64,000 nt of DNA, from the NCBI RefSeq assembly GCF_029689945.1, contig NZ_CP121451.1, forward strand, positions 1,922,001 through 1,986,000, given 5' to 3'. The DNA comes from Paenibacillus amylolyticus (GTDB taxonomy: Bacteria; Bacillota; Bacilli; Paenibacillales; Paenibacillaceae). The translations under genes were made by a program, and so were the position numbers. The notes under the pieces were generated by a model. The model was not told the origin of the DNA. It searched no databases and saw only the letters and a program-made list of their open reading frames with translations. Positions 3,996 through 21,222 of the stretch are shown here, piece by piece; the stretch's first letter is position 1, and each line of letters starts with the position of its first letter.

Positions 3996-4019
3996 TTTCC
4001 TGTATAAGATAAATTAAAT

Positions 4020-4163
4020 ATTTACACTGGGACGAAGAGTGCAGAACCGATCTGAAGAAGCGAAGCTACAAGCTTTCTGAAGGAAAGCTTCATCGGAAGT
4101 ATAGGCTACGCGTTTATCGAGCGATCGGAAGATGGTACTGCAATCGGAGTGTCTAGTGTAAAT
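4020..4163. repeat. Structured intergenic repeat, copy A
   Basis: This 144-bp element is bounded by inverted ends: ATTTACACTGGGAC at 4020-4033 and GTCTAGTGTAAAT at 4151-4163. An inner stem pairs TGCAGAACC (4040-4048) with GGTACTGCA (4134-4142) with one mismatch. A perfect 8-bp hairpin, AAGCTTTC/GAAAGCTT (4070-4077 with 4083-4090), sits in the middle. It shares CTGAAGAAGCGAAG near the left side and GCGATCGGAAGAT (4121-4133) near the right side with copies at 16436-16587 and 19011-19134. No reading frame of note lies within it. It could be a MITE-like element, a REP-type repeat or a structured RNA. Confidence 0.7.
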
Positions 4164-4443
4164 CTTATGGAAATGAAAATGGTAAACGGTTTTTTCAGGA
4201 AAACGTAGAAGAGTCGGTGCAGAAGTGGTACACTATACTAGTTCAGGAGTTATGACTGCTGATCTGAAGAATATGAATGACTGTAAGCTTGGAGTTCGGG
4301 CAATACAGACATAATAGATAGATATGGCAATACGTTGAAAATGCAGGTGTACCCGATTAGGTGCAGTTTTAAGCTTGGTATGTTCAGGCGTTTAAGGATA
4401 TGGGGATGAAATCCGGCGTAAGCCGGCTATGGGGAGGATCTAC
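4164..4443. other. Non-coding stretch upstream of the U32 gene
   Basis: About 280 bases between repeat copy A and the U32-family gene. I see no convincing gene, terminator or textbook promoter, although the promoter for the next gene must lie here or upstream. Confidence 0.4.
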
Positions 4444-6956
4444 ATGAAAACAGCAACAATACGAAGAGAAGACGTTGAACTTCTGGCACCTGCTGGTGAC
4501 TGGGATTGTATGCGTTCGGCGGTAGCCAATGGCGCAGATGCAATTTTCTTCGGAGTCGAAAAGTTTAATGCACGGGCACGGGCGAACAATTTCCGCATGG
4601 ACGAGCTGCCGGAGATTATGGCGTTTTTGCACAGTTATGGCGTAAAAGGTTTTTTGACCTTTAATATATTGATTTTTGAAAATGAATTGACGGATGCCAA
4701 AGAACTGATTGATGCTTGTGTCGATGCAGGTGTGGACGCTGTAATTGTTCAGGATTTGGGTTTGGTGAAGTTGATCCGTGAGATCTCGCCAGATTTTCCG
4801 ATTCACGGTTCAACACAGATGACGATTACGTCACCGGAAGCGGTCGAGTTTACGAAGCCGTTTGATATGGAACGTGTCGTTCTGGGACGGGAGAACAACC
4901 TGAAGCAGATCCAGAAGATCGGTGAACAGGCGAAGCTTCCAATGGAAGTATTTGTTCATGGTGCGCTCTGTGTATCCTACTCAGGTCAATGTCTGACTTC
5001 CGAAATGTGGGGTGGACGTTCCGCCAACCGTGGGGAGTGTGCACAAGCTTGTCGTCTGCCATACGACTTGATGGTGGATGGAGAGCACAAGCCGATGGGG
5101 GATGTAGCTTATCTGTTGTCTCCGAAGGATCTGGCAGCGATTGATCTGATGCCGGAACTGATCGAAGCAGGAGTCACTTCTTTCAAAATTGAAGGACGTC
5201 TCAAAACGCCGGAATACGTAGCGAACGTAGTAAGCAAATATCGTAAAGCGATTGACCGTTATTTTGATGGAGATAACACACCGCCAAGCAAGGAAGAAGT
5301 TCGCGAATTGCAGCAAAGCTTCTCCCGTGGATTCACGCATGGTTTCCTGAGCGGTACAAACAATAAAGAACTGGTGGATGGAACGTTCCCGAAAAGCCGT
5401 GGCGTCTACCTTGGTCGTGTAGATCAAGTGTTGCGCGATGGTGTGGTCCTGAAGCTGGACGCACCTGTCAAACGTGGAGACGGGATCGTATTTGACGCTG
5501 GAGATCCGACTCAGAAGGAAGAAGGCGGACGGGTATACGATGTACGTCGCAAAGGCGTAAAACTCGAAGGCGAAGCCGAAGAGGGCTGGATCGTTGACGT
5601 CGTGCCAGGCCGCAGTGATGTGGATCTGCGCCGCGTAAAAGTTGGCGACAAAGTGTGGAAAACGAATGACCCGGCGCTGGACAAACGTCTGCGTCAAAGC
5701 TTCGAGACCGAGAAGCCGTACCGTGTATTCCCGGTGAAGGTGAAGGTCATCGGCAGCCCGGGCAGCCGCTTAGCACGTGGTGGACAGACGTGCAGAAAGG
5801 CACGACCGTCCGGATTGATTCCGAGATGGAACTGGACATCGCACAGAAGCGTCCAATGACACATGAATTGCTCGAAGAGCAGTTCGGACGTCTGGGAGGC
5901 ACCGTGTTCCAGCTGGAAGGTATGGACGTTAACCTGCACGGTGACGTCATCATCCCGATGCGCGAGTTGAATAACATTCGCCGTCAGGCGGTAGAACAAC
6001 TCGCGGGCGAACGTCCGAAACCACCCGTCTACGTGAAACGGGCGGTAGATGTGTACGGCGATTCGGTTAAACCCGCATCGCCAGTCGCTCGCGGTCAAGC
6101 AGAGTTGACCGCGCTCTGTCGCAGCCTGCCACAAGTGGAGGCAGCGATCGAAGCGGGTATCGGCATGATCTATGCCGACTTCGAGTTTATCAAACAGTTC
6201 CCGGCAGCCGTGGAAGCTGTGCATGCCGCAGGTCGCAAGATCGCGCTGGCAACACCGCGTATTCATATGCCTGGGGAGAACGGATATCATAACAATATCC
6301 TGCGTCTGAAGCCGGATGCGGTATTGGTACGCAATACAGGCGCACTGTACTTCTACCTGCGTCACCGGATGGAAAACCCGGATGCGAAGCACCCGGAACT
6401 GATCGGCGACTTCTCATTGAACATCGCCAATCACAAAGCTGTTGAATTGTTCCTGGAAGCAGGATGTGACTGGATTACACCGTCCTATGACTTGAACATT
6501 CAACAAATGGTTGATTTGCTGGGCCACTCCCGTACAAGTCAGACCGAAGTGGTTATCCATCAGCATTTGCCGATGTTCCACACCGAGCACTGTGTATATT
6601 GTACGTTTATGAGTGAAGGAACGGACTATACGAACTGTGGACGTCCTTGTGAGGAACAGCGTGCATCCCTGCAAGACCGGATTGGTATGTCTCACCCGGT
6701 ACGTGTGGATGAAGGTTGCCGTAATACGGTATACAATGCAGTGGAGCAGTCAGGTGCCGAGTATCTGACCAACTTTATGGATCTGGGTGTATCCCGTTAC
6801 CGTGTGGAATTCCTGGAAGAGACACCGGAGCAGGTACGTGAAGTCATTGATCTGTACAACCGTGCACTGCGCGGTGAGATCAGTGGTACGCAAGTTTGGA
6901 AAACACTCAAAGCAACGAACCAACTTGGCGTTACACGTGGTCAATTGGTGAAATAA
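4444..6956 (+). CDS. rlhA: Peptidase U32 family protein, RlhA-type (frameshifted in this sequence)
   Basis: The gene encodes about 837 residues once a frame break near 5767 is repaired. Adding one C to a CC run there gives a continuous SPGSPLSTWWTDVQKG junction. The N-terminal half carries the U32 family core: LAPAGDWD at the start, the Cys-rich signature around HGALCVSYSGQC, and ECAQACR. The C-terminal half has a second Cys cluster (HCVYCTFM, NCGRPCEEQR, EGC). Length and layout match the long U32 proteins related to E. coli RlhA, which makes 5-hydroxycytidine in 23S rRNA; despite the family name, these are not proven proteases. The ATG at 4444 is chosen because GGGGAGG lies seven bases upstream; an in-frame ATG at 4429 overlaps that site. 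The rlhA assignment is by family resemblance and moderately sure. A terminator follows. Confidence 0.85.
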
Positions 6957-6994
6957 ACAGATTGTATGGTACAACCACAGTTACAAGCATGAAG

Positions 6995-7036
6995 GAACCC
7001 CAATCTCTGCTTCAAGGAGCTCTTGGGGTTCTTTTT
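6995..7036 (+). terminator. Rho-independent terminator
   Basis: GAACCCCAA (6995-7003) pairs with TTGGGGTTC (7023-7031), with further pairing inside, followed by TTTTT. It ends the U32 gene transcript. Confidence 0.85.
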
Positions 7037-7063
7037 ACATCATGACACAGGAGGCGAAGAAGC

Positions 7064-10000
7064 GTGGCGCCATTCACAATCATGGATATCAAATTGCTGT
7101 GCGGGGTCACGGCATTCAAGCGCGGAGAAGATTATAACCAATCTGGCAGGGTGACCAATCTGGTGGTCAGTAAGGATCAGCTTCATTATGAAGCACAGGT
7201 ACGTGGATCGGAGCGCTATCAGGTGACGGTGGATATAGATGGAACGGGTGAGGTTGTGGCAGGTTGCAGTTGTCCGGGTGATGGCAGACATTATGATTAT
7301 TGCAAACATGTAGCTGCTGTTCTGTTGGCTATTCACGAATGGGGTGAGCAGCAGGAGCATAATGGCACAATTAACTCTGGGAAGCCTACTCAATCTGCTA
7401 CGGGTCAAGGAGCCAATACCAGTTCCAGCACAGGTTCCAAGTCTAGGGTCGGGACGCTGGTTGAAGAGAGCAAGTGGGAGCGCCCTCAGTCTGATTCACA
7501 ACGAGAGCAGATGAATAATGCTCCAGCGCGTGCTCCTGTTCATTTTGCCCAAGCAGGTCGTCCAAGCTCAGCTACGGGGTGGGGCCGTTCGGCGGATAAA
7601 CCATCTTATCGTACGGCGGACCAGATTCTGTCCATGTTTGCCAAGGACCGGCGACCGTTGCATGGAAATGACCGTAAATACACTGCACCTGTCAGCCGTT
7701 CCTCCCTGCAGGAAGAGTTGCAGGTCCAGTTTATATGCAAACTGATACAGGTTCATAAGGGTGGAGGGAAACTTGCTCTTGAACTGAAAGTGGGTAACAA
7801 ACGTCTGTATGTGGTGCAGAAAGTGAAGCAATTCCTGAACTGTATCGAAAAGGGCGAGCCAATGTCATTCACCAAGCTGTTCCACTATGATCCAATGATG
7901 CATGTTTTCAATCCGCAGGATCAGGCTATTCTCTCGATGCTTATTCGAATGAGACAGAGTGAAGAAGCATATCGTCAATCCATTTCCGGTTATCTGGGAG
8001 CTTCCGATGGAAGGGAGATACTGATTGCTCCACTCGTATGGAAGCCATTGCTGGAATTACTGCTACAGGCTGACAGTCGGATGGAGGGTACGGGATTTGC
8101 CAATGGACCACTCACACTGGGTGAAGGTGTATTGCCTTTATTTTACCGGATTGCCCAAGGAACGAATGAAGGGTATCAGCTTGAAATTTCCGGACTGCGT
8201 GAGCTGATTCTTCTCCCTGCTTATGATGCTGCTGTGGTGGAAGGACAGCTGCACATGTTGGAGCCGATGCAGATGCGAAGTTTGGAGGACTTGAGTGCGG
8301 CACTCAATTCATATGGGATCAAGGAAAGTATTGATATTTCGACCCACCAGGTGGATGAGTTTGTGCAGCATGTTGTACCTGAACTGCGTACGCTCGGACA
8401 TCTGTCCATTGATTCACAGGTGCGAGAACAGATCGCGGAACCGGAACTTTCACCGAAGCTGTACATCGACTTCTATCGTGAACGTATTACAGCACGTCTG
8501 GAATTCGACTATGAAGTCATGGTAATTAATCCGCTGGCGGAGTACTTGATCGATGAAGAAGAGAAAAAGGTTATTTTGGTGCGTGATCGATACAAAGAGC
8601 GGAATCTGATTGAGCGGCTGGATCGATCCTTTCTCGAAAGGGATGGCAGTGTCTGGGCAAGCGAACGGGAAGATGCCATCTATGATGTCATGTACCATCT
8701 GCTGCCTGAACTTGAGAAACAGGTCGAGATCTATATACCAAATGCCGTGAAGGCGATGGTGCAATCCTATCCAACACCGCCGAAAGTCCGGGCAGATCTG
8801 GGTAGAGGATTGGACTGGCTGGAGATTTCATTTGAGATGGAAGGTGTGGACGAGCAGGAGCTTCAGGAACTTATGCGCCGCATTGTGGAAAAGAAACCGT
8901 ATTTCCGCCTCAAGAGTGGCGTCTTTCTCTCGCTTGAAAATGAAGGTGCAGACAGCTTCGCTCACATGGCCGATTCACTTGGACTGGGAGCAGATGACAT
9001 CAAGAGCAGCCATATCCGGCTGCCAGCTGTTCGGGCGTTGCAATTGCCAGGCAGGGATGAGGTTTCGGGGCACGTGAAGTGGGGAGGCTCCTTGAAACGT
9101 TTCCTTGACGATCTGCGTGATCCTGAACGGATGGATTTTGCATTGCCGGGATCTCTGACCCCCATCCTGCGGGATTATCAGAATAGCGGATACCAGTGGC
9201 TGCGTACCCTCGCTTATTATCGTTTTGGCGGTATTCTGGCGGATGATATGGGACTTGGCAAAACGTTGCAAAGCATCGCCTATATCACAGCAGTACTTCA
9301 GGAGAAGCCCGAGTACAACATTGACCATACGGGTAGTGATAAGTATCGGGAGAGCGGATCATTATGGGGCGGTGAAACGTTGGCCACTGCCAACATCGAT
9401 CCCGAAACTGGACTCCCTTTGGATAAGATGGCATCAGAGAATACGGATGGTTCATGGTCCACGATGCAGCAGGATGGATTAACGGTCCGGACGAAGGTCA
9501 TTCATCCTCCGGTACTTGTCGTGGCGCCTGCCTCGCTGACCTATAACTGGGCTAATGAGTTTTCGAGGTTTGCCCCGCATCTGAACGTTCTGATCGCAGC
9601 CGGGCAGAAAGAAGAACGAGCCAATATGCTTTCAGGCATGGATGAGGCAGATGTGATTGTGACATCGTATCCTTTGTTGCGTCGGGATCTGGACACGTAC
9701 CTTGGCCGAACATTCCATACGCTCATTCTGGATGAAGCTCAGGCGATTAAAAATGCTTCTTCCCAGACCGCGCAGGCAGTAAAACAGATTCAGGCACCGC
9801 GCCGTTTTGCACTCACAGGTACACCTGTGGAGAACTCGCTGGATGAATTATGGTCCATCTTTGAAGCTGTATTCCCTGGGCTGTTTCCAAGCTACCGAAG
9901 ATTCCTCGATCTTCCTCCGGAACGGATCTCGCGGATGGTACGTCCCTTTATTCTCCGCCGCCTGAAGAAGGATGTGTTGGAAGAATTGCCTGATCGAATT

Positions 10001-10714
10001 GAAACGGTACAGCGGTCAGAGCTCACGGTTGAACAGAAGAAACTGTATGCCGCATACCTCTCCCAGCTTCAGGATGAAGCATCGAAGGATATGGAGGATA
10101 ACGGATTCCAGAAGAATCGTATCAAAATTCTGGCTGGCATCACGCGTTTGCGTCAGTTGTGCTGTCATCCGGCCCTCTTTGTCGAAGGCTATCAAGGCGA
10201 TTCCGGGAAAATGGAGCAGCTGCTAGAAACGGTCGAAGACTGTTTGGCGGCAGGCAAACGCATTCTCATCTTCTCCCAGTTTGCAAGCATGTTGAACCTG
10301 ATTCGTCAGACGCTCGCGGCACAGGGAAGAAACCTGTTTTACCTGGATGGTCAGACCCCTGCGCAGAGCCGTGTCGAGATGTGTCACAGATTTAACGAGG
10401 GTGAAGCTGAGCTGTTCTTAATCTCCCTGAAAGCAGGTGGTACCGGATTAAATTTAACAGGGGCAGATACCGTTATATTATATGATCTGTGGTGGAATCC
10501 CGCCGTGGAAGAACAGGCCATCGGCCGTGCTCATCGTATGGGACAAAAACAAGTGGTTCAAGTCATCCGCTTGGTTACCGAAGGTACAATCGAAGAGAAG
10601 ATTTTGGAACTTCAGCAGCGGAAGAAGGACTTGATTGCCGAAGTGATCGAACCGGGAGACGGCGGATCAACGACGTTATCCGAACAGGATATCCGCGAAT
10701 TGTTGATGGTATAA
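7064..10714 (+). CDS. SWIM zinc-finger SNF2/RapA-family DNA helicase
   Basis: A 1216-residue Swi2/Snf2 ATPase, presumably a cytoplasmic DNA translocase. The N-terminus holds a SWIM zinc finger with Cys68, Cys70, Cys80 and His82 (CSCPGD...YCKH). A low-complexity linker rich in Ser, Gly and Gln follows (about 95-180), then a bacterial SNF2-associated region (about 200-680). The helicase core has motif I GLGKT near residues 729-733 in LADDMGLGKTLQS, the DEAQ box near 890, LTGTPVEN near 924, and motif VI QAIGRAHRMGQ near 1153. The start is a GTG with AGGAGGCG upstream. SWIM-SNF2 proteins are common in Bacillota; roles in repair or transcription recycling are inferred from the family and no specific substrate can be read here. 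An insertion of about 60 residues rich in Gly/Thr/Asp lies between motifs I and Ia. Confidence 0.93.
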   Translation: MAPFTIMDIKLLCGVTAFKRGEDYNQSGRVTNLVVSKDQLHYEAQVRGSERYQVTVDIDGTGEVVAGCSCPGDGRHYDYCKHVAAVLLAIHEWGEQQEHNGTINSGKPTQSATGQGANTSSSTGSKSRVGTLVEESKWERPQSDSQREQMNNAPARAPVHFAQAGRPSSATGWGRSADKPSYRTADQILSMFAKDRRPLHGNDRKYTAPVSRSSLQEELQVQFICKLIQVHKGGGKLALELKVGNKRLYVVQKVKQFLNCIEKGEPMSFTKLFHYDPMMHVFNPQDQAILSMLIRMRQSEEAYRQSISGYLGASDGREILIAPLVWKPLLELLLQADSRMEGTGFANGPLTLGEGVLPLFYRIAQGTNEGYQLEISGLRELILLPAYDAAVVEGQLHMLEPMQMRSLEDLSAALNSYGIKESIDISTHQVDEFVQHVVPELRTLGHLSIDSQVREQIAEPELSPKLYIDFYRERITARLEFDYEVMVINPLAEYLIDEEEKKVILVRDRYKERNLIERLDRSFLERDGSVWASEREDAIYDVMYHLLPELEKQVEIYIPNAVKAMVQSYPTPPKVRADLGRGLDWLEISFEMEGVDEQELQELMRRIVEKKPYFRLKSGVFLSLENEGADSFAHMADSLGLGADDIKSSHIRLPAVRALQLPGRDEVSGHVKWGGSLKRFLDDLRDPERMDFALPGSLTPILRDYQNSGYQWLRTLAYYRFGGILADDMGLGKTLQSIAYITAVLQEKPEYNIDHTGSDKYRESGSLWGGETLATANIDPETGLPLDKMASENTDGSWSTMQQDGLTVRTKVIHPPVLVVAPASLTYNWANEFSRFAPHLNVLIAAGQKEERANMLSGMDEADVIVTSYPLLRRDLDTYLGRTFHTLILDEAQAIKNASSQTAQAVKQIQAPRRFALTGTPVENSLDELWSIFEAVFPGLFPSYRRFLDLPPERISRMVRPFILRRLKKDVLEELPDRIETVQRSELTVEQKKLYAAYLSQLQDEASKDMEDNGFQKNRIKILAGITRLRQLCCHPALFVEGYQGDSGKMEQLLETVEDCLAAGKRILIFSQFASMLNLIRQTLAAQGRNLFYLDGQTPAQSRVEMCHRFNEGEAELFLISLKAGGTGLNLTGADTVILYDLWWNPAVEEQAIGRAHRMGQKQVVQVIRLVTEGTIEEKILELQQRKKDLIAEVIEPGDGGSTTLSEQDIRELLMV

Positions 10715-10789
10715 TGGAGTCCAAGCATCGTAGCAGTAAGAATCATTAAATATATTAATATATGTATCTAGCAAAAGGAGTGGGTTCGT

Positions 10790-11667
10790 GTGCGTATTCG
10801 CAAAGCGATTATACCAGCCGCAGGGCTGGGTACCCGGTTTCTGCCTGCCACCAAGGCGATGCCTAAGGAAATGCTGCCCATCGTGGACAAGCCAACGATC
10901 CAGTACATTATTGAAGAAGCCGTAGCTTCAGGCATTGAAGATATCATTATTGTGACAGGTAAAGGGAAGCGGGCCATTGAAGATCACTTCGACTATTCGT
11001 TTGAGCTGGAGCAGAATCTGGCGGACAAACAGAAGTGGGACTTGCTTAACGAAGTACGCAAACCCTCCGAGATGGCAGATATCCATTATATCCGTCAAAA
11101 GGAACCGAAGGGACTTGGTCACGCCATCTGGTGCGCCCGCAAGTTTATTGGCAATGAACCTTTTGCCGTCCTCTTGGGGGACGACATTGTGGAAGCCGAC
11201 CATCCCTGCCTGAAGCAGATGATCGATGTTTACGATGAACTGCAATCTCCAATTGTTGGTGTACAACCTGTGGATTGGAGCGAGGTTTCTCGCTACGGGA
11301 TCGTAGACGGGGAGTTGTTAACCCCTACGGATGATCGTGTTTTTCGCGCCCGCCGATTAATTGAGAAACCGAAGACCGAAGATTCCCCTTCGAACCTGGC
11401 TATTATGGGACGTTATATTCTTACACCGGATATTTTTGAGATATTAGGTCAGCAATCTGCTGGCGTTGGGGAGAAATTCAACTCACGGATGCCTTGTCCC
11501 GATTGAATGAACAACGGCAGATTCTTGCATATCATTTCGACGGACTGCGTCATGATGTTGGTGAGAAGTTAGGCTTTATTGAAACGTCAATTCATTACGC
11601 GTTGCAGCGCCCGGATCTACGGAATGATCTCTTAAAGTATTTGGAACAGGTCATAAAGGATCAATAA
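10790..11667 (+). CDS. galU: UTP-glucose-1-phosphate uridylyltransferase (frameshifted in this sequence)
   Basis: GalU makes UDP-glucose from UTP and glucose-1-phosphate, feeding cell-wall glycopolymer and glycolipid synthesis. The N-terminus has the nucleotidyltransferase signature [17 protein letters not shown] (residues about 12-28), and DKP and LLGDD follow as expected. The frame breaks at 11468-11471: inserting one G into GGGG restores [12 protein letters not shown] and the normal C-terminus to the stop at 11665-11667, giving about 292 residues. As read, the protein ends at 11506. The start is a GTG with AAAGGAGTG upstream. The rml genes lie immediately downstream but after a terminator, so this is probably a separate transcript with a related role. 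Confidence 0.93.
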
Positions 11668-11688
11668 ATGGTTTTCCGTATGCTCTCG

Positions 11689-11730
11689 AAGTCCAGCCGA
11701 AGAATGATATCGCGGCTGGGCTTTAATTTA
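11689..11730 (+). terminator. Rho-independent terminator
   Basis: AAGTCCAGCCG (11689-11699) pairs with CGGCTGGGCTT (11713-11723) with one G-U pair, followed by TTAATTTATTTTT. It ends galU. Confidence 0.8.
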
Positions 11731-11849
11731 TTTTTGAGGAAGAATAAATATGAGGGTTATACAGGCCAATGAACAAACACTTGCCCGACACTTTACATAT
11801 ACATAGTCAATATGAAGAAATGATGTCAACAGCAAAACGGAGGGATGTC

Positions 11850-12398
11850 ATGAAGGTACTTCCGCTGTTTATGGATGGCGCTGCCATATTGGAACCTCAG
11901 GTTTATGGTGATCACCGTGGATATTTTATGGAAAGTTATAATGAACAGGTTCTGCATGAACAGGGGATACAGCATGTCTTTATTCAGGACAATCAATCCT
12001 TGTCGGCAGAAGCAGGTGTCTTACGTGGGCTTCATTACCAGCTTCAGCCCAAAGCGCAAACTAAATTGGTGAGGGTGATATCAGGGGCTATATATGATGT
12101 GATTGTGGATGTCCGCACGTCATCCCCCACTTTTGGTCATTGGAAAAGTGTCATACTAAGTGAGTACAACCAGCGGCAGCTGCTTGTTCCTCAAGGATTT
12201 GCTCATGGATTCTGTACCTTGGTGCCTCATTCCCAGGTGACTTATAAGGTAGACGCTTATTATTCGCCTGAACTTGACCGTGGAATTCTGTGGAACGATC
12301 CGGCACTCGCCATTGATTGGCCTGTGACGAAACCTATATTATCGGAGAAGGATCAGAAGCATCCTTTACTGAAAGATGCCGAACTGAACTTCGATTAA
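11850..12398 (+). CDS. rfbC: dTDP-4-dehydrorhamnose 3,5-epimerase
   Basis: RmlC epimerises dTDP-4-keto-6-deoxyglucose at C3 and C5, the third step to dTDP-L-rhamnose. The 182-residue product has the family features: GDHRGYFMESYN near the start, LRGLHYQ with the catalytic-type His, VVRV-like ISGAIYDVIVDVR, and the PQGFAHGF loop. I chose the ATG at 11850, which has CGGAGGGA about seven bases upstream and gives the usual RmlC length; the frame is open further upstream to 11769 but without support. It leads a compact rmlC-rmlB-rmlD cluster. No gene for the first enzyme, RmlA, is adjacent. Confidence 0.95.
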   Translation: MKVLPLFMDGAAILEPQVYGDHRGYFMESYNEQVLHEQGIQHVFIQDNQSLSAEAGVLRGLHYQLQPKAQTKLVRVISGAIYDVIVDVRTSSPTFGHWKSVILSEYNQRQLLVPQGFAHGFCTLVPHSQVTYKVDAYYSPELDRGILWNDPALAIDWPVTKPILSEKDQKHPLLKDAELNFD

Positions 12399-12452
12399 TT
12401 AATCAGACTTTTCAGATACTTCTGTATCTGGAGACAGAGGGAGAGGGACAGC

Positions 12453-13478
12453 ATGAAACTACTGGTTACGGGTGGGGCCGGATTTATCGGCAGCAACTTT
12501 GTGCTATATATGCTTCGTGAACATCCGAATTATGAAATTATCAATGTGGATGCCTTAACGTATGCGGGGAACCTGGAGAACTTGCATACGGTAGAGTCCA
12601 ATCCCAGATATACCTTCATCCAAGCAGATATTGCAGATGTACAGCAGATGGATGCTGTTTTTTCCCAAGGCATCGATGTGGTTGTGAATTTCGCTGCCGA
12701 GTCTCATGTGGATCGAAGTATTCTGTCCCCGGATATCTTTGTGCGTACCAATGTGATGGGGACTCAGGTTCTGCTGGATGCGGCAAAGAAATATCAAGTC
12801 ACCAAATTTGTTCAGGTATCGACGGATGAGGTATATGGATCACTAGGTCCAACAGGTTTATTTACTGAAGATACACCTCTGATGCCAAACAGTCCTTACT
12901 CTGCAAGTAAAGCTGGCGGGGACCTGCTCGTAAGAGCCTATCATGAGACCTTTGGACTGCCTGTAAATATTACACGTTGCTCCAATAACTACGGACCTTT
13001 TCAATTCCCGGAGAAACTGATTCCGCTGATCATATCCCGTGCATTGAATGATGAAGCTATTCCAGTATATGGTGACGGGCTCAACATTCGTGACTGGCTC
13101 TATGTCGAGGATCATTGCAGTGCGATTGATCTGGTGATTCATAATGGACAATCTGGCGAAGTATACAACATTGGTGGTAATAATGAACGTACTAATATAT
13201 ACATTGTGCAGAGCGTATTGGAGCAACTGGGTAAGCCAGCCAGCTTGATTCAGTATGTACAGGATCGATTGGGGCATGACCGACGTTATGGTATAGATCC
13301 TACCAAGATACGTACAGAGCTCGGCTGGCAACCTGCACACAACTTTGAGACAGGGATTAAGGAGACAATTCAGTGGTATCTGAAACACCAGGATTGGTGG
13401 ACGAGAATTCAATCCGGCACATATCAGGACTATGTTCAGCTTCAGTACGGTAAACGGATGGGTGATTCGTCCACATGA
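12453..13478 (+). CDS. rfbB: dTDP-glucose 4,6-dehydratase
   Basis: RmlB is an NAD-dependent short-chain dehydrogenase/reductase that converts dTDP-glucose to the 4-keto-6-deoxy sugar. The 341-residue protein opens with the TGGAGFIG dinucleotide-binding motif (6-13), carries the family active-site Thr124-Asp125-Glu126 within STDEVYGS, and has the YSASK motif with Tyr149. The ATG is preceded by AGAGGGAGAGGGA. Its stop codon overlaps the start of rfbD by four bases (ATGA), so the two are translationally coupled. Product: intermediate for rhamnose-containing surface polysaccharide or glycoprotein glycans. Confidence 0.97.
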   Translation: MKLLVTGGAGFIGSNFVLYMLREHPNYEIINVDALTYAGNLENLHTVESNPRYTFIQADIADVQQMDAVFSQGIDVVVNFAAESHVDRSILSPDIFVRTNVMGTQVLLDAAKKYQVTKFVQVSTDEVYGSLGPTGLFTEDTPLMPNSPYSASKAGGDLLVRAYHETFGLPVNITRCSNNYGPFQFPEKLIPLIISRALNDEAIPVYGDGLNIRDWLYVEDHCSAIDLVIHNGQSGEVYNIGGNNERTNIYIVQSVLEQLGKPASLIQYVQDRLGHDRRYGIDPTKIRTELGWQPAHNFETGIKETIQWYLKHQDWWTRIQSGTYQDYVQLQYGKRMGDSST

Positions 13479-14356
13479 ACTATAGAGTTATGGTAACTGG
13501 CGCGGCGGGACAGCTGGGTTATGATGTGGTGAAGACCTTCGAAGCAGAGGGTCATCAGGTGTTGGCCTGTGACAAGAACCAGATGGATATTACCGATCAA
13601 CAGCAGTGCACAGATATGATTACAACGTTCCGACCGGACATCATTATTCACTGCGCAGCTTACACTGCGGTCGATCAGGCTGAAGCAGATGAGGATACAG
13701 CATACGCAATCAATGCTTCAGGAACTAGAAATATTGCAGTTGCAGCCGAGAGAGTGAGAGCAAGGCTGGTATATATCAGTACCGATTATGTCTTTGATGG
13801 GAGTGGGAGTACACCATACCGGGAGTACGATGTAACGAATCCACAGAGTGTTTATGGCAAGTCGAAACTTGCCGGTGAACATCTTGTTCAAAGTTTGTGT
13901 ACGCGATGGTTTATCATTCGAACATCATGGGTGTTTGGTATGCATGGCAGTAATTTTGTCAAAACCATGCTGGAACTTATGGTGAAGCGTCCACAACTTC
14001 AAGTTGTTCATGACCAACAAGGTTCACCTACCTATACGGTGGATCTTGCCCGATTCATCTATCTCCTTTGCGTAAGTGAAAAGTATGGCATCTATCATGC
14101 TTCCAATTCCGGAACTTGCACATGGTATGAGTTTGCACAGGCTATTAGGGAAGAAGCGACTAAGCAGGGGGAATTCAAGTCAACGGCTGAACTTGTGCCA
14201 TGCACAACCGATCAGTTTCCACGTCCAGCCCCGCGTCCTGCATACTCGGTTATGGATCATCTATCGATCCGAACGAATGGTCTGGAACCTCTGAGACCTT
14301 GGCGTGAGGCACTGATTGCGTTTTTGAAAGAGTTGAGTGTAGCCCAAATAGACTGA
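13475..14356 (+). CDS. rfbD: dTDP-4-dehydrorhamnose reductase
   Basis: RmlD reduces dTDP-4-keto-rhamnose to dTDP-L-rhamnose using NAD(P)H. The 293-residue protein has the Rossmann motif GAAGQLG (9-15) and the YGKSK catalytic motif with Tyr127. The conserved DxxKxD-type segment appears as CDKNQMDITD near residues 32-41. Its ATG overlaps the rfbB stop, with only a weak ribosome-binding site, which fits translational coupling. It ends the rml cluster and is followed by a strong terminator. Confidence 0.96.
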   Translation: MNYRVMVTGAAGQLGYDVVKTFEAEGHQVLACDKNQMDITDQQQCTDMITTFRPDIIIHCAAYTAVDQAEADEDTAYAINASGTRNIAVAAERVRARLVYISTDYVFDGSGSTPYREYDVTNPQSVYGKSKLAGEHLVQSLCTRWFIIRTSWVFGMHGSNFVKTMLELMVKRPQLQVVHDQQGSPTYTVDLARFIYLLCVSEKYGIYHASNSGTCTWYEFAQAIREEATKQGEFKSTAELVPCTTDQFPRPAPRPAYSVMDHLSIRTNGLEPLRPWREALIAFLKELSVAQID

Positions 14357-14405
14357 TAATGTTGATGGCCCGTACTTTATCCCTAAATATTACCCACCAT
14401 TTAAC

Positions 14406-14435
14406 AGCCGCCTCCGGGCGGCTATTTTGTTTTGT
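14406..14435 (+). terminator. Rho-independent terminator
   Basis: AGCCGCC (14406-14412) pairs perfectly with GGCGGCT (14417-14423) around a TCCG loop, followed by ATTTTGTTTTG. It ends the rml operon. Confidence 0.85.
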
Positions 14436-14491
14436 ACCTCCTAGATTCGGGTAGTTAGCTAACAAAAAGGTACTGAGGATGTGAATGTGAT

Positions 14492-15365
14492 ATGAAACGC
14501 ATTGCTGCCGTTTTGACACTACTAATCGTTACCGTGGGTACACTCTTTTTGCTTATGAGAGCCAAAGTGAAGAGCAACGGGACGGATTTACCGCTTATAG
14601 ATTAATAGCCCATGCGATGGGCAGCATTCGTGATCAACCATATACCAACGCCTATGAAGCGATGATTGCCAATTACGAGAAAGGCACACGTGTATTTGAG
14701 ATTGATTTTATGCTGACCTCAGATCGCAAAGCCGTAGCCAGACATGAGTGGACAGCTAATATGAGCAAACTGCTAGGACAAGACGAAGAGCTTTCGGAGG
14801 ATAAGCAGGCCGGGGCACTGACACATGATGAGTTCATGAATACGCCTATTTTGGGTATGTACCAGCCCATGGATGCCGACGGCATTATAGATGTACTGGC
14901 TAAATACCCGGATATGTATATCGTAACGGACACCAAGGAACAGAAGGATGAAGATATTCAGCAGGTGTTAAGATCCTCGTGGATGCAGCCAAAGAACATG
15001 ATCCATCCGTGCTGGATCGGGTGGTGGTACAGATCTATAATGAACCGATGCTTGAAACAGTGAAAGAAGTCCACGCCTTCCCTTCCATTATCTATACGTT
15101 ATATGCCACACAGGATACAGAAGATCAGGTTGTTGATTTTGTGCAAAAGAATGATATTGATGCCGTAACCATGCCGGAATATAAAGTAAACCAGAATTTC
15201 GTCGCCAAGTTGAATAGTGCGGGGGCGGTCACTTACGTACACACCATTAATGACACTGAACAGGTGGCTAACTATGAGAAATGGGGCGTGTACGGGGTTT
15301 ACTCGGACGTGTTAACGGAGCAGGAACTGGATGACATGAACACACGCTTTGCCTGGAAACCGTAA
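14492..15365 (+). CDS. Exported GDPD/PI-PLC-like phosphodiesterase (two frameshifts in this sequence)
   Basis: After two repairs this is a protein of about 291 residues. The first is one T added to TTTTT at 14546-14550, which joins the N-terminal hydrophobic signal segment (MKRIAAVLTLLIVTVGTLFF) to AYESQSEEQRDG. The second is one T added near 14968, giving QVFKILVDAAKEHD. The core resembles the glycerophosphodiester phosphodiesterase TIM barrel: a His-containing LIAHAMGS motif, FEIDFMLTSD with the metal-binding Glu and Asp, and a second His in ARHEW. The usual HRG motif is replaced by HAMG, as in some PI-PLC/GDPD-superfamily branches, so the substrate is uncertain. The N-terminal segment predicts export or membrane anchoring. 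It sits alone between the rml operon and pcrB. Confidence 0.8.
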
Positions 15366-15479
15366 AAACTCACGTTTTCTGTTCCCCTTTTTATGCGAAC
15401 ATTGACACTCACAGCCTGCTGACTTAGACTTAGTTTACAAGCTTTCTAGGATGCAGAAGAACCTCTGGAGGAATGTTCG

Positions 15480-16175
15480 TTGATAGACATGATTAAGCAG
15501 TGGAGACATGTATTTAAGCTTGACCCGGACCGGGAGATTACGGACGAAGAACTTGATCTGGTCTGCATGTCGGGGACCGATGCAATTATCGTCGGCGGAT
15601 CTTCCGGAATTACTTATGATAACACGGTAGACCTGATGTCCCGTGTACGTCGTTATGAGTTGCCCTGTGTGCTTGAAGTATCCGATCTGGAGGCGGTTGT
15701 TCCCGGGTTTGACGGATATCTGATCCCGATGGTCCTGAATGCAACGGACAGCAAATGGATGATTGGACACCACCAGCAGGCCATAGAACGTTATGGTTAT
15801 CTCATCCCTTGGGACCTGCTGATTGCCGAGGGTTATATCGTGCTTAATGCAAACTCCACGGTAGCGCGGTTGACGGGTGCAGATACAGAACTGACGACAG
15901 GAGCAGCGGTCGCATATGCCCAGGCTGCGGAGCGTCTGCTCAATCTTCCCATTGTATACATGGAGTACAGCGGAACGTTCGGAGATATGGAGCTTGTTGG
16001 TGAGACACATAGGCAACTGGATCGGGCACATCTCATCTACGGCGGCGGAATTGATGATACGGAGAAAGCCGTGCAGGCTGCCCAGGTAGCAGATACCGTT
16101 GTGGTAGGTAACATTGTATACAGCGATTTAAATAAGGCACTTGAGACGGTGTTGGCCGTAAAAGGAACCATTTAA
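15480..16175 (+). CDS. pcrB: Heptaprenylglyceryl phosphate synthase
   Basis: PcrB is the bacterial relative of archaeal GGGP synthase and joins heptaprenyl diphosphate to glycerol-1-phosphate, a first step to an ether lipid in Bacillota. The 231-residue TIM-barrel protein shows the expected phosphate-binding and substrate motifs: VGGSSGI near 39-45, YMEYSGTFGD near 160-169, and YGGGIDD near 188-194. The start is a TTG with GGAGG eight bases upstream (15467-15471); the next in-frame ATG at 15489 is too far from that site. It heads the same pcrB-pcrA-ligA order known from Bacillus. Between pcrB and pcrA lies a repeat-filled gap of about 460 bases, so the genes may not all share a single transcript. 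Confidence 0.93.
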   Translation: MIDMIKQWRHVFKLDPDREITDEELDLVCMSGTDAIIVGGSSGITYDNTVDLMSRVRRYELPCVLEVSDLEAVVPGFDGYLIPMVLNATDSKWMIGHHQQAIERYGYLIPWDLLIAEGYIVLNANSTVARLTGADTELTTGAAVAYAQAAERLLNLPIVYMEYSGTFGDMELVGETHRQLDRAHLIYGGGIDDTEKAVQAAQVADTVVVGNIVYSDLNKALETVLAVKGTI

Positions 16176-16270
16176 TCGGTTTAGTTTACCAATCCCCATT
16201 TTCCCCTTATGATCTGTTAAAATAGAACTTTGCCCTTACTAATTTTAAAAAGTTATATGAGCGTAATGTC

Positions 16271-16420
16271 GTTTACACGAGAAGGAAGTGTTCTCTCTTG
16301 TATTTTGACTACCTTTAAATATAAGCTGAACTATTTTTTACACGAGAACGGAGAGGACAGAAATAAGCTGGAGAAGCGGAGTGTTCACATTTACTCACGT
16401 TTTTTACCTCTTACAACAAT
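16271..16420. repeat. Degenerate left-end copies of the structured repeat
   Basis: Two partial copies precede the full copy B. GTTTACACGAGAAGG begins at 16271, and TTTACACGAGAACGG begins at 16337. The second continues with GCTGGAGAAGCGGAGTGTTC, which matches the left half of copies B and C, and then decays near 16415. Neither has the right-hand GCGATCGG part. No credible gene lies in 16176-16635. Confidence 0.5.
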
Positions 16421-16435
16421 TCGTATAAAAGGCTA

Positions 16436-16587
16436 TGTTTACACAGAAACGTAGAGTGCAGGAGCAAGCTGAAGAAACGAAGTGTTCGCCTTTATTCCCG
16501 GATTTTCACCTTTGAAAAGGTAGATCAAAAAATTCGGGAATAACAGCGATCGGAAGATGCTGCTGCAATCGAAGTCCGAGTGTAACA
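16436..16587. repeat. Structured intergenic repeat, copy B
   Basis: This 152-bp element is bounded by TGTTTACAC (16436-16444) and GTGTAACA (16580-16587). An inner stem pairs TGCAGGAGCA (16457-16466) with TGCTGCTGCA (16558-16567) with one mismatch. A central stem pairs TTATTCCCG (16492-16500) perfectly with CGGGAATAA (16535-16543), and a small hairpin around ACCTTTGAAAAGGT lies inside it. The conserved GCGATCGGAAGAT is at 16546-16558. It lies between pcrB and pcrA and ends about 50 bases upstream of the pcrA start. Confidence 0.75.
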
Positions 16588-16635
16588 GATAGCTCCTTAT
16601 ACTGACCAACCAACCAACGAAAGGAGCATGCATGC

Positions 16636-18988
16636 ATGCAACCTGTAAATATACATGATGCCGTTGCACGACTTAACACCCCTCAACGGCAAGCCGTCGA
16701 GGCGACGGATGGCCCGCTGCTGATTATGGCCGGAGCGGGATCCGGCAAGACCCGGGTGCTGACACACCGGATTGCCTACCTTATTGCAACACGGAAAGCA
16801 CCCGTGGGGCATTTTAGCGATTACCTTTACGAATAAAGCCGCCCGTGAGATGCAAGACCGTGTTTCCCAACTGGTTGGTGGCTCCCAAGGCCGCGACATT
16901 TGGGTATCCACGTTCCACTCTATGTGTGTGCGAATTTTGCGTCGTGATATTGAACGTATTGGCTTTACCTCCAACTTCAGTATTCTGGACTCTTCGGACC
17001 AACTATCTGTTATTCGCAGCTGTATGAAAGATCAGAATATTGATACCAAGAAATTCGAGCCAAAAGCAGTTCAAGCGATGATGAGCACGGCCAAGAATGA
17101 ATTGATCAGTCCGGAGCAATATGAGAAGCAGGCAGGAGACTATTTCGAGGGTATTGTAGCGAAGATATATAAGATGTACCAGAAACGGTTAAGAGCCAAT
17201 AACTCACTGGACTTTGACGATCTCATTATGCAGACCATTCAATTGTTCAAGGAAGTACCGGAAGTCCTCGACTTTTACCAAAAGAAATTCCAGTACATTC
17301 ACGTGGACGAGTATCAGGATACGAACCGTGCACAGTATATGCTGTGCCGCATGCTTGCTGACAGTCATCACCGCATCTGCGTTGTAGGGGATAGTGACCA
17401 ATCGATCTATCGCTGGCGTGGAGCGGATATCAGCAATATCCTGAACTTTGAGAAAGATTACCCGGAAGCAAATACGATTTTGCTGGAGCAGAACTACCGT
17501 TCTACTTCCAATATCCTGAATGCAGCGAATGAAGTGATCGGCCTGAATACAGGGCGAAAACCGAAGAAACTGTGGACGGACAAAGAGGGCGGTTCGAAGA
17601 TCAAGGTATACCGTGCGGATTCCGAACATGATGAGGGGTATTTTGTTACCTCCGAGATTAGTAAAAATGTGAAGAACGGCAAATCCTATCAGAACCATGC
17701 CATTTTGTATCGTACCAATGCCCAGTCCCGGGTTATAGAGGAAATTTTGATCAAGTCTGATATTCCGTATCAGATTGTCGGCGGCATCAAGTTCTATGAT
17801 CGTAAAGAGATCAAGGACATTCTGGCGTATCTGCGCCTGTTATCCAACCCCGACGATGATATCAGTCTTACCCGGATTATTAATGTACCGAAGCGCAGCA
17901 TCGGGGATACAACGGTAGCGAAGCTGGCGGCTGCGGCAGGAGAGCGGGGAATTTCCATTTTCCGTGTGTTACAGGTCGTGGATGATCTTGGTTTTGCTGG
18001 CCGTACACGTAATGCGCTGGTGGAGTTCTATGACATGATCGCTGCTCTGCATCAGATGGTAGAATACCTGTCTGTAACTGAATTAACCGAGAAGATTCTG
18101 GAGATGAGCCAATACCGTCTTGAGATGCAAAATGAAAATACACTCGAATCCCGTGCACGGCTGGAGAACATTGAAGAGTTCCTCTCCGTAACCATGGAAT
18201 TTGAGAAAAATAACGAAGACAAAACGCTCGTATCATTCCTCACCGATCTTGCATTGATTGCAGACATCGACAGTATGAACGATGATGAAGAGGATCAGAG
18301 CGATGCGGTTACCCTGATGACCATGCACAGTGCCAAAGGTCTGGAGTTCCCGGTTGTCTTTATCGTGGGTATGGAGGAAGGGGTCTTCCCGCACAGCCGT
18401 GCCTTTATGGATAATGAAGAGTTGGAAGAAGAACGCCGACTTGCTTATGTAGGGATCACCCGTGCGGAAGAACAACTCTTCCTGTCTTGTGCGCAGATGC
18501 GTACCTTGTTTGGACGTACTACGGCGAATCCGCCTTCCCGCTTCCTGGATGAAATTCCGGATGAGCTGAAGGAAGATACCTCCATGGCTCGTGATCGTTA
18601 CCGCCGCGGCAGCAGCGGTGGTGGCTCATATGGTGGACGTGGATTGGGTTCCAGTGGAGGGAGTAACTTCGGTGGTGGTACCAAGCTGTTTGATCACCAA
18701 AGCAAGAGCGGGTCATCTGCTACCTCATCCACGCCAACTTCGCGTGTGACCACAAGCACCTCCCGCCCAACATACTCTACGCCATCTTCTGCTTCCAAGT
18801 CGGTGGCTTCCAATGGTGAAGCAGGATTCAAGGCTGGAGACAAAGTGCAGCATGGCAAATGGGGGACAGGCACAATCGTTGCAGTCAAAGGTACAGGTAA
18901 TGACACCGAACTGCAGATAGCATTCCCGGCTCCGGTTGGTGTGAAACGTTTGCTTGCCGGTTTTGCCCCAATTACGAAAGTAGAATAA
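16636..18988 (+). CDS. pcrA: ATP-dependent DNA helicase PcrA (frameshifted in this sequence)
   Basis: PcrA is an SF1A 3'-5' helicase essential in Bacillus for replication and repair. The product is about 783 residues once a frame break at the CCC run 16801-16803 is repaired (one C too many, or two too few); the corrected junction reads [20 protein letters not shown] or with one extra Pro. Motif I is GAGSGKT near residue 34, and motif II appears as VDEYQDTN near 223-230. [13 protein letters not shown] (motif III), EQNYRS (motif IV) and [14 protein letters not shown] (motif V) follow. The C-terminus has a Gly/Ser/Thr-rich linker and a Tudor-like domain ([16 protein letters not shown]) that in PcrA/UvrD contacts RNA polymerase. 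The ATG at 16636 follows GAAAGGAGCATGC. The protein is otherwise intact. Confidence 0.95.
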
Positions 18989-19010
18989 GAACGAAACTTC
19001 CTTCTGCATA

Positions 19011-19134
19011 ATAACGGAGAGAACAGTAATAACTTGAAGAAGCAAAGTGTTCGCCTTTATCCCCGGATTTCTACCTTTGAACATGAATTAAAAGAAATAT
19101 GGGGATAACAGCGATCGGAAAGTTGTTCTGTTAT
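19011..19134. repeat. Structured intergenic repeat, copy C
   Basis: This copy lies between pcrA and ligA. Its outer stem is ATAAC (19011-19015) plus AGAACA (19020-19025), pairing with TGTTCT (19124-19129) plus GTTAT (19130-19134). The central stem pairs TTATCCCC (19057-19064) perfectly with GGGGATAA (19101-19108). It has TTGAAGAAGCAAAGTGTTCG on the left and GCGATCGGAA (19111-19120) on the right. The TTTACAC-type outermost ends of copies A and B are not clear here. Confidence 0.7.
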
Positions 19135-19176
19135 CGGCGTTCAAGTGCAAGAGGAGTGTTCGTTCTACATATATAG

Positions 19177-21222
<2,046 letters not shown>

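Follow-up and report, generated by a model that had tools for sequence, protein, structure and literature searches.

The window analysed here, a 64,000-nucleotide stretch of DNA (positions 1,922,001–1,986,000 of the 6.83-Mb genome of Paenibacillus amylolyticus), carries three copies of an intergenic repeat, termed A, B and C. All three lie in gaps between plus-strand genes and at the positions given in a preliminary description of this DNA, and all fold better than dinucleotide shuffles, with z-scores of −4.0 (A), −6.3 (B) and −6.9 (C). Their arms reach further out than had been described, to about 4000–4170 in A, 16422–16602 in B and 18989–19165 in C. The features are as follows.

4000..4170, + strand: copy A, a divergent member placed from sequence (model match 4031–4152, 49.0 bits; fold z −4.0)
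15480..16175, + strand: pcrB, the gene 5′ of copy B (PF01884, E 5e-75)
16316..16416, + strand: truncated copy directly 5′ of copy B, placed from sequence (start position approximate)
16422..16602, + strand: copy B in the pcrB–pcrA gap, outer arms paired (core 16448–16577, 132.7 bits)
16482..16488, + strand: mini-hairpin of copy B (AC-GAA-GT), position read from sequence; its pair covaries G-C/A-U
16636..18988, + strand: pcrA, the gene 3′ of copy B (PF13361 and PF00580; start and frame read from sequence; reading frame interrupted in the assembly)
18989..19165, + strand: copy C in the pcrA–ligA gap (core 19013–19142, 129.5 bits)
19204..21222, + strand: ligA, the gene 3′ of copy C (PF01653, E 1e-70)

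The reading frame of a glycerophosphodiester-phosphodiesterase-like gene (14617–15365, by eye) is interrupted like that of pcrA, and both interruptions are probably assembly errors. The truncated copy before B retains an end-like TATAAGCTGAACT at 16320, a TTTACAC and the 5′ half of the core, and relatives carry fuller forms of it. Copy C, with arms GAACGAAACTTCC.../...GGAGTGTTCGTTC, stops short of the ligA ribosome-binding site and has TCTGCA/TGCA in place of TTTACAC. The different centre that had been noted for copy A identifies a divergent member (covariance-model E 1.2e-10): P1 and the conserved loops resemble those of other members, and the centre is replaced by a AAGCTTTC...GAAAGCTT hairpin type that recurs in other copies of the same genome.

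The claim of at least three copies proved to be a considerable understatement. BLAST with copy B found at least 41 places in the genome, 40 of 181 candidates having been scored. A covariance model (R1), built from an alignment of 30 full copies of this genome that included B and C and not A, gave at least 150 matches, the weakest of those listed having an E value of 2.5e-13. Stretches of the genome totalling 960 kb, chosen because they contain copies, held 189 R1 matches at E 0.01. The best 150 of these were aligned, and removal of rows shorter than 100 nt and of overlapping rows left 111 full-length copies. Neighbouring genes were called with a simple gene caller of our own on this assembly with its interrupted frames; 8 of the 111 copies overlap a called frame, one is without a neighbour and 102 could be placed. 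Tandem arrays with a period of ~220–310 bp were also seen in other genomes (in G074, C4 28698–29757, C9 141488–142447 and 1315004–1315702; G009 C11 235696–236427; G010 C15 26203–26775), as were, among own-genome copies, modular subtypes in length classes of 117–124 and 166–171 nt (e.g., L043, L050 and L058), in which a AAGCTTTC...GAAAGCT hairpin is inserted or swapped, reminiscent of the variable modules in BOX elements.

R1 matched every one of the 75 genus genomes; across the order it matched 234 of 296, spread over 31 of 48 genera. Copy numbers per genome start at 1 (G021), and the upper figures are lower bounds. Of 348 genomes of the class, 32 gave matches, all of them belonging to the same order; nothing was found outside the order among these 348. 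At gathering scores Rfam gave no match to the family, either in the window or in the 20 loci fetched from elsewhere, and copies B and C had no related hit even at E 10; the novelty proposed earlier survived this check. Likewise, no such repeat appeared, by title and start of abstract, in literature on Paenibacillus repeats, MITEs and structured RNAs, a search that had subscription journals and ISfinder outside its scope. The family appears to be undescribed.

From the outside inwards, the fold consists of the outer arms, a CGGAG facing CGGAG (by inspection a GGA/GGA-like internal loop), P1, a junction with conserved GA(A/G)GA, a mini-hairpin R-C-GNA-G-Y, P2a (GTTCGC/GCGATC), a mismatch, P2b with a variable loop, and GGAAG leading back into P1. 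In the 30 own-genome copies (alignment A1), two-sided changes occurred in 21 of 31 pairs, and 94.3% of cells pair versus 86.9% in shuffles. Among 72 distinct matches from several genera (A3, an alignment fitted to the covariance model, which favours the structure), 27 of 31 pairs showed two-sided changes and pairing was 95.1% versus 68.6% in shuffles; with slid versions of the structure it dropped to 35–50%. Covariation thus confirmed the stems and compensatory changes of the preliminary description, which had missed the two-pair mini-hairpin. Of the 72 cross-genus rows, 55 have G-C and 17 have A-U as the outer pair of this hairpin. The mini-hairpin pair 30–37 of A1, broken in 0 of 30 own rows and 0 of 72 cross-genus rows, replaces the pair 37–117 proposed by RNAalifold since it covaries without broken cells. 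The alignments thus show that covariation maintains P1, the GNA mini-hairpin and P2. The earlier suggestion of selection on a folded RNA or DNA is supported, in that covariation beats shuffled and slid controls, also at fixed orthologous sites described below. A hammerhead-like ribozyme, suggested by a resemblance in CTGAAGA, was dismissed by eye on the general rules for that motif.

An excess of G-U over A-C mismatches is expected for a sense RNA. Counted on Watson-Crick-majority pairs, the G-U to A-C ratio was clear in A3 (59:19) and A5 (13:2), whereas the ratios in own copies (25:17 in A1, 6:2 in A6) were not significant and count against the sense-RNA reading. The preference for G-U in A3 and A5 bears on a further explanation, namely that the fold matters as single-stranded DNA, through hairpin ends or replication-linked recognition, rather than as RNA. 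GNA triloops are very stable in DNA, palindromes can acquire compensatory changes through templated repair, and the copies show a strand bias along the chromosome. However, the kept G-U pairs, the placement relative to start codons, a direction that tracks the neighbouring gene (52:9 sense for leading-strand genes) and the ends and TA duplication described below, which indicate a DDE transposase acting on double-stranded DNA, make this explanation very improbable.

TTTACAC had been taken for the inverted ends of the element. It does form an inner inverted repeat, but the transposon ends lie ~20 nt further out and read TATAAGTTGAACT...AGTTCAACTTATA. In one clean comparison, nine displayed records of an empty site read GGCTAG, and the filled site of Paenibacillus taichungensis (L215) reads GGGC-TA-[TATATGTTCAACT...AGTTGAATGTATA]-TA-GCG, with flanks that overlap by TA. 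This comparison rules out TTTACAC as the transposon end and places a TA duplication within a CTAG target; the target-site duplication sought at the TTTACAC ends sits at the outer ends instead. The CTAG in question lies just before a DEAD-box helicase gene, and in L158, L161, L174 and L176 it carries elements whose interior is of another type, so the site has probably been hit more than once.

The window's own gaps were also compared among relatives. The pcrB–pcrA gap holds an element in 21 of 21 species and the pcrA–ligA gap in 13 of 21, with a short hairpin in six and other hairpins in two (both gaps compared by eye); as the element is absent or replaced in eight of 21 species, no copy need be essential. 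In element-free species among L138–L157, the latter gap contains a different hairpin, in some cases a short one that covaries (GAACGAACG-NNGAG...CTCNN-CGTTCGTTC). In five species (L138, L142–L145), a whole element lies there within an older element, whose central hairpin it interrupts, bounded by AGAAATC-TA and TA-GTGA, which is compatible with TA duplication. At another site, the gap before an sdhB-like gene, an element is present in 27 of 80 named loci (E 1e-6). SdhB from a stretch near the window shares 99% identity with entries for Paenibacillus xylanexedens, P. amylolyticus and other species.

With ~200–250 nt and no transposase inside, the element is non-autonomous. PF13358 was not found in the P. 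amylolyticus genome at E 1e-5 and is present in 20 of 75 genus genomes. Five of 30 PF13358 loci, in four genomes, contain a 1.16-kb insertion sequence with matching ends on both sides, and one of these genomes (G080) is from a close relative (LigA 99%). Locus L240 combines a close variant of the ends with the IS630 transposase NF033545, CTATATAAGTTGAACTAAAGATTA is common to the MITE 3′ ends and the insertion sequence of L259, and the remaining loci among the 30 have other ends or none recognised. The transposase gene with the same ends that had been looked for thus occurs in IS630-type insertion sequences of related genomes. These insertion sequences, the empty site with its TA duplication and the nested element support the proposed mobility, and the two readings offered earlier as alternatives, mobile MITE/REP-like element and structured RNA, are both supported at once, the REP-like (RAYT) part having been dropped when the TA duplication and the IS630 ends came to light.

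By a loose pattern, 75 of the 102 placed own copies belong to a class with terminal inverted repeats (TIR class) and 27 fall outside it; with up to 3 mismatches in 13 allowed, 29 of the 75 have both ends and 58 have at least one. By the sequence of their ends, TIR-class members are shown to be an IS630-type MITE, an assignment restricted to this class that does not include family members without ends. Promoter-like hexamer pairs at 3 mismatches occur on the antisense strand of 53 and on the sense strand of 17 of the 75 TIR-class copies. A separate type with AGTGNAGGG...CCGGAACGG ends accounts for 14 of the 102 copies; it is without IS630 ends, resembles the fixed copies of genus g36 described below, and is often further from the next start (86–240 nt).

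In tandem gaps, 61 copies are sense and 13 antisense; 19 copies in divergent gaps point at the gene, and convergent gaps hold nine. The core ends a median of 64 nt from the start codon (n = 80). For the TIR class, the distance is ≤75 nt to 42 of 59 co-oriented starts versus 1 of 24 opposite-side starts (Fisher p 1e-8). By these gene calls, copies near genes are shown to lie mostly in sense, just before the ribosome-binding site. On a rough chromosome split, leading-strand genes have 52 sense versus 9 antisense copies; lagging-strand genes have 9 versus 4 (p 0.27), too few to decide. Within the TIR class, antisense copies do not score below their sense counterparts (median rank 46 in either orientation). 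CTAG occurs 1.04 times per kb outside called genes and 0.34 times per kb inside.

The core also exists outside the mobile element. In genus g36, 14 genomes were searched and contain 1–4 copies each. One copy lies between the ketol-acid reductoisomerase and 2-isopropylmalate synthase genes (ilvC–leuA gap) in 12 genomes, and another between the citrate synthase and isocitrate dehydrogenase genes (citZ–icd gap) in at least nine; 30 of 43 matches were fetched, and neighbour families were tested in one locus per site and read by eye in the rest. From core end to start codon, 19 of the 21 copies at these two different sites have a distance of 53–61 nt, and the other two have 93 nt. MAFFT alignments of orthologous copies alone, with structures drawn from one sequence of each set, showed two-sided changes in 8 of 32 and 8 of 31 pairs at the two sites, with 18 and 17 two-sided cells versus 5.6 and 5.3 in shuffles. 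Per-column identity was 0.91 in the core versus 0.78/0.77 in the flanks at one site, and 0.89 versus 0.78/0.72 at the other. Among 85 matches in L078–L137, some copies being counted repeatedly, none had both transposon ends and two had one end-like stretch. Within Paenibacillus itself, three of eight low-copy genomes have a copy at a common site, flanked by a thiolase and an acyl-CoA dehydrogenase gene. On this comparative evidence, the core is shown to be more widespread than the shell: a genus other than Paenibacillus keeps it, shell-free, at fixed sites between cistrons and equally far from the start codon. Near a low-scoring g36 copy, Rfam identified BsrC (RF01410, 72.4 bits; L126 1887–1973, minus strand).

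Several modes of action were considered. Predicted ribosome-site accessibility is unchanged by the element (0.47 with it versus 0.48 without; n = 40). No sense promoter was evident in 75 copies (mean best mismatch 3.8 versus 3.68 in shuffles), and in copies B and C of the window the 3′ arm has, by eye, no T run behind it that would mark an intrinsic terminator. A metabolite riboswitch was rejected, as 20 of 52 near-start genes, the ones scanned, shared no family or pathway. The ribosome-binding site predicted to be open, the absence of a sense promoter and the unrelated genes together make it more likely that the element acts on how mRNA is processed or how stable it is. Effects of this kind have been reported for Correia and ERIC elements (PMC10969869, PMC3049150), and the present element probably acts in the same way.

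Based on these data, we propose with moderate confidence that an IS630-type MITE carries a structured RNA module as cargo, yielding a mobile 5′-UTR or intercistronic RNA that is kept by selection. The miniature element (ends TATAAGTTGAACT, target CTAG) is shown by sequence to insert with a TA duplication, and it would bring in the RNA module. Sense insertions just before a ribosome-binding site would then be retained because the folded RNA is useful in the 5′ UTR or intercistronic region. Its action would most likely be post-transcriptional: a stable hairpin whose conserved loops may be bound or cut by an RNase or RNA-binding protein would set the processing or stability of the downstream cistron, leaving the ribosome-binding site uncovered. 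The unrelated near-start genes, the unchanged antisense scores and the 9:4 ratio on the lagging strand weigh against a useful RNA.

A purely selfish IS630-type MITE, with a hairpin kept for transposition and no host benefit, is an explanation that we regard as possible but doubtful. Position and direction would then follow from target choice, CTAG being rarer in genes, and from the removal of harmful insertions. Mobility with polymorphism between close relatives, nested and tandem copies, unrelated downstream genes, antisense copies without decay and the CTAG densities given above all fit. However, cut-and-paste of double-stranded DNA should not favour sense copies (61:13) or the pre-start side (42/59 versus 1/24), and at two fixed sites in g36 the core persists although the ends are missing (0/85 with both ends) and shows compensatory changes. 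In a further explanation, the element would act on transcription, either by supplying a promoter or by causing attenuation or termination between cistrons. This would suit its intercistronic position and the reports that Correia and other MITEs carry promoters and that BIMEs can attenuate (PMC10969869, PMC3049150), but is very improbable given the missing sense promoter signal in the 75 copies and the 3′ arms of B and C without a following T run.

A MITE with an RNA effect is a known kind of element. RUP of Streptococcus pneumoniae is, like the present family, a small, high-copy, RNA-folding intergenic repeat with IS630-type ends, in its case resembling those of IS630-Spn1 (PMC3049150). It differs in being a simple repeat of 107 bp that is enriched between convergent genes (PMC3049150), whereas the present family lies in sense before starts, has a junction RNA with conserved loops and also occurs without the shell. 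The BOX elements of S. pneumoniae are likewise modular, mobile and RNA-folding; they can be transcribed in 5′ regions and may alter expression of neighbours by orientation (PMC3049150). In the portion of the description drawn on here, they differ in their boxA-B-C modules, ISSpn2-like ends, over-representation between convergent genes and the absence of a junction with a GNA mini-hairpin (PMC3049150). Correia elements of Neisseria are MITEs often found upstream of genes, and their transcripts are processed by RNase III; they have sigma-70-like promoters and an IHF site (PMC10969869, PMC3049150) and belong to another host group, whereas the present family shows no sense promoter. What is distinctive of the present family is the shell-free core at fixed sites, the covariation there, and the sense placement at a near-constant distance before starts. 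In size, mobility, structure and copy number it also recalls bcr1 of the Bacillus cereus group, a mobile, structured repeat of ~150 bp that occurs about a hundred times in a Gram-positive soil bacterium from a different host group.

High-copy MITEs are often taken to be selfish. In the present case, a covarying RNA forms the cargo, the same RNA exists shell-free at conserved sites in another genus, and the copies are directed and placed like a 5′-UTR element. For annotators, this adds a family, missing from Rfam 15, of which a single genome has at least 150 copies. The many natural copies and empty sister sites make the distribution of an RNA regulator by a transposon directly testable. A further-reaching scenario, which we consider unlikely, starts from a cis-acting RNA that is ancient in the order and is read by its own dedicated trans factor. 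In Paenibacillus, an IS630-type MITE would have captured this RNA and carried it into hundreds of transcripts. If this were true, the captured RNA, with its three-way junction and GNA mini-hairpin, would be a portable post-transcriptional module, and its transposition would wire new genes into one regulon.
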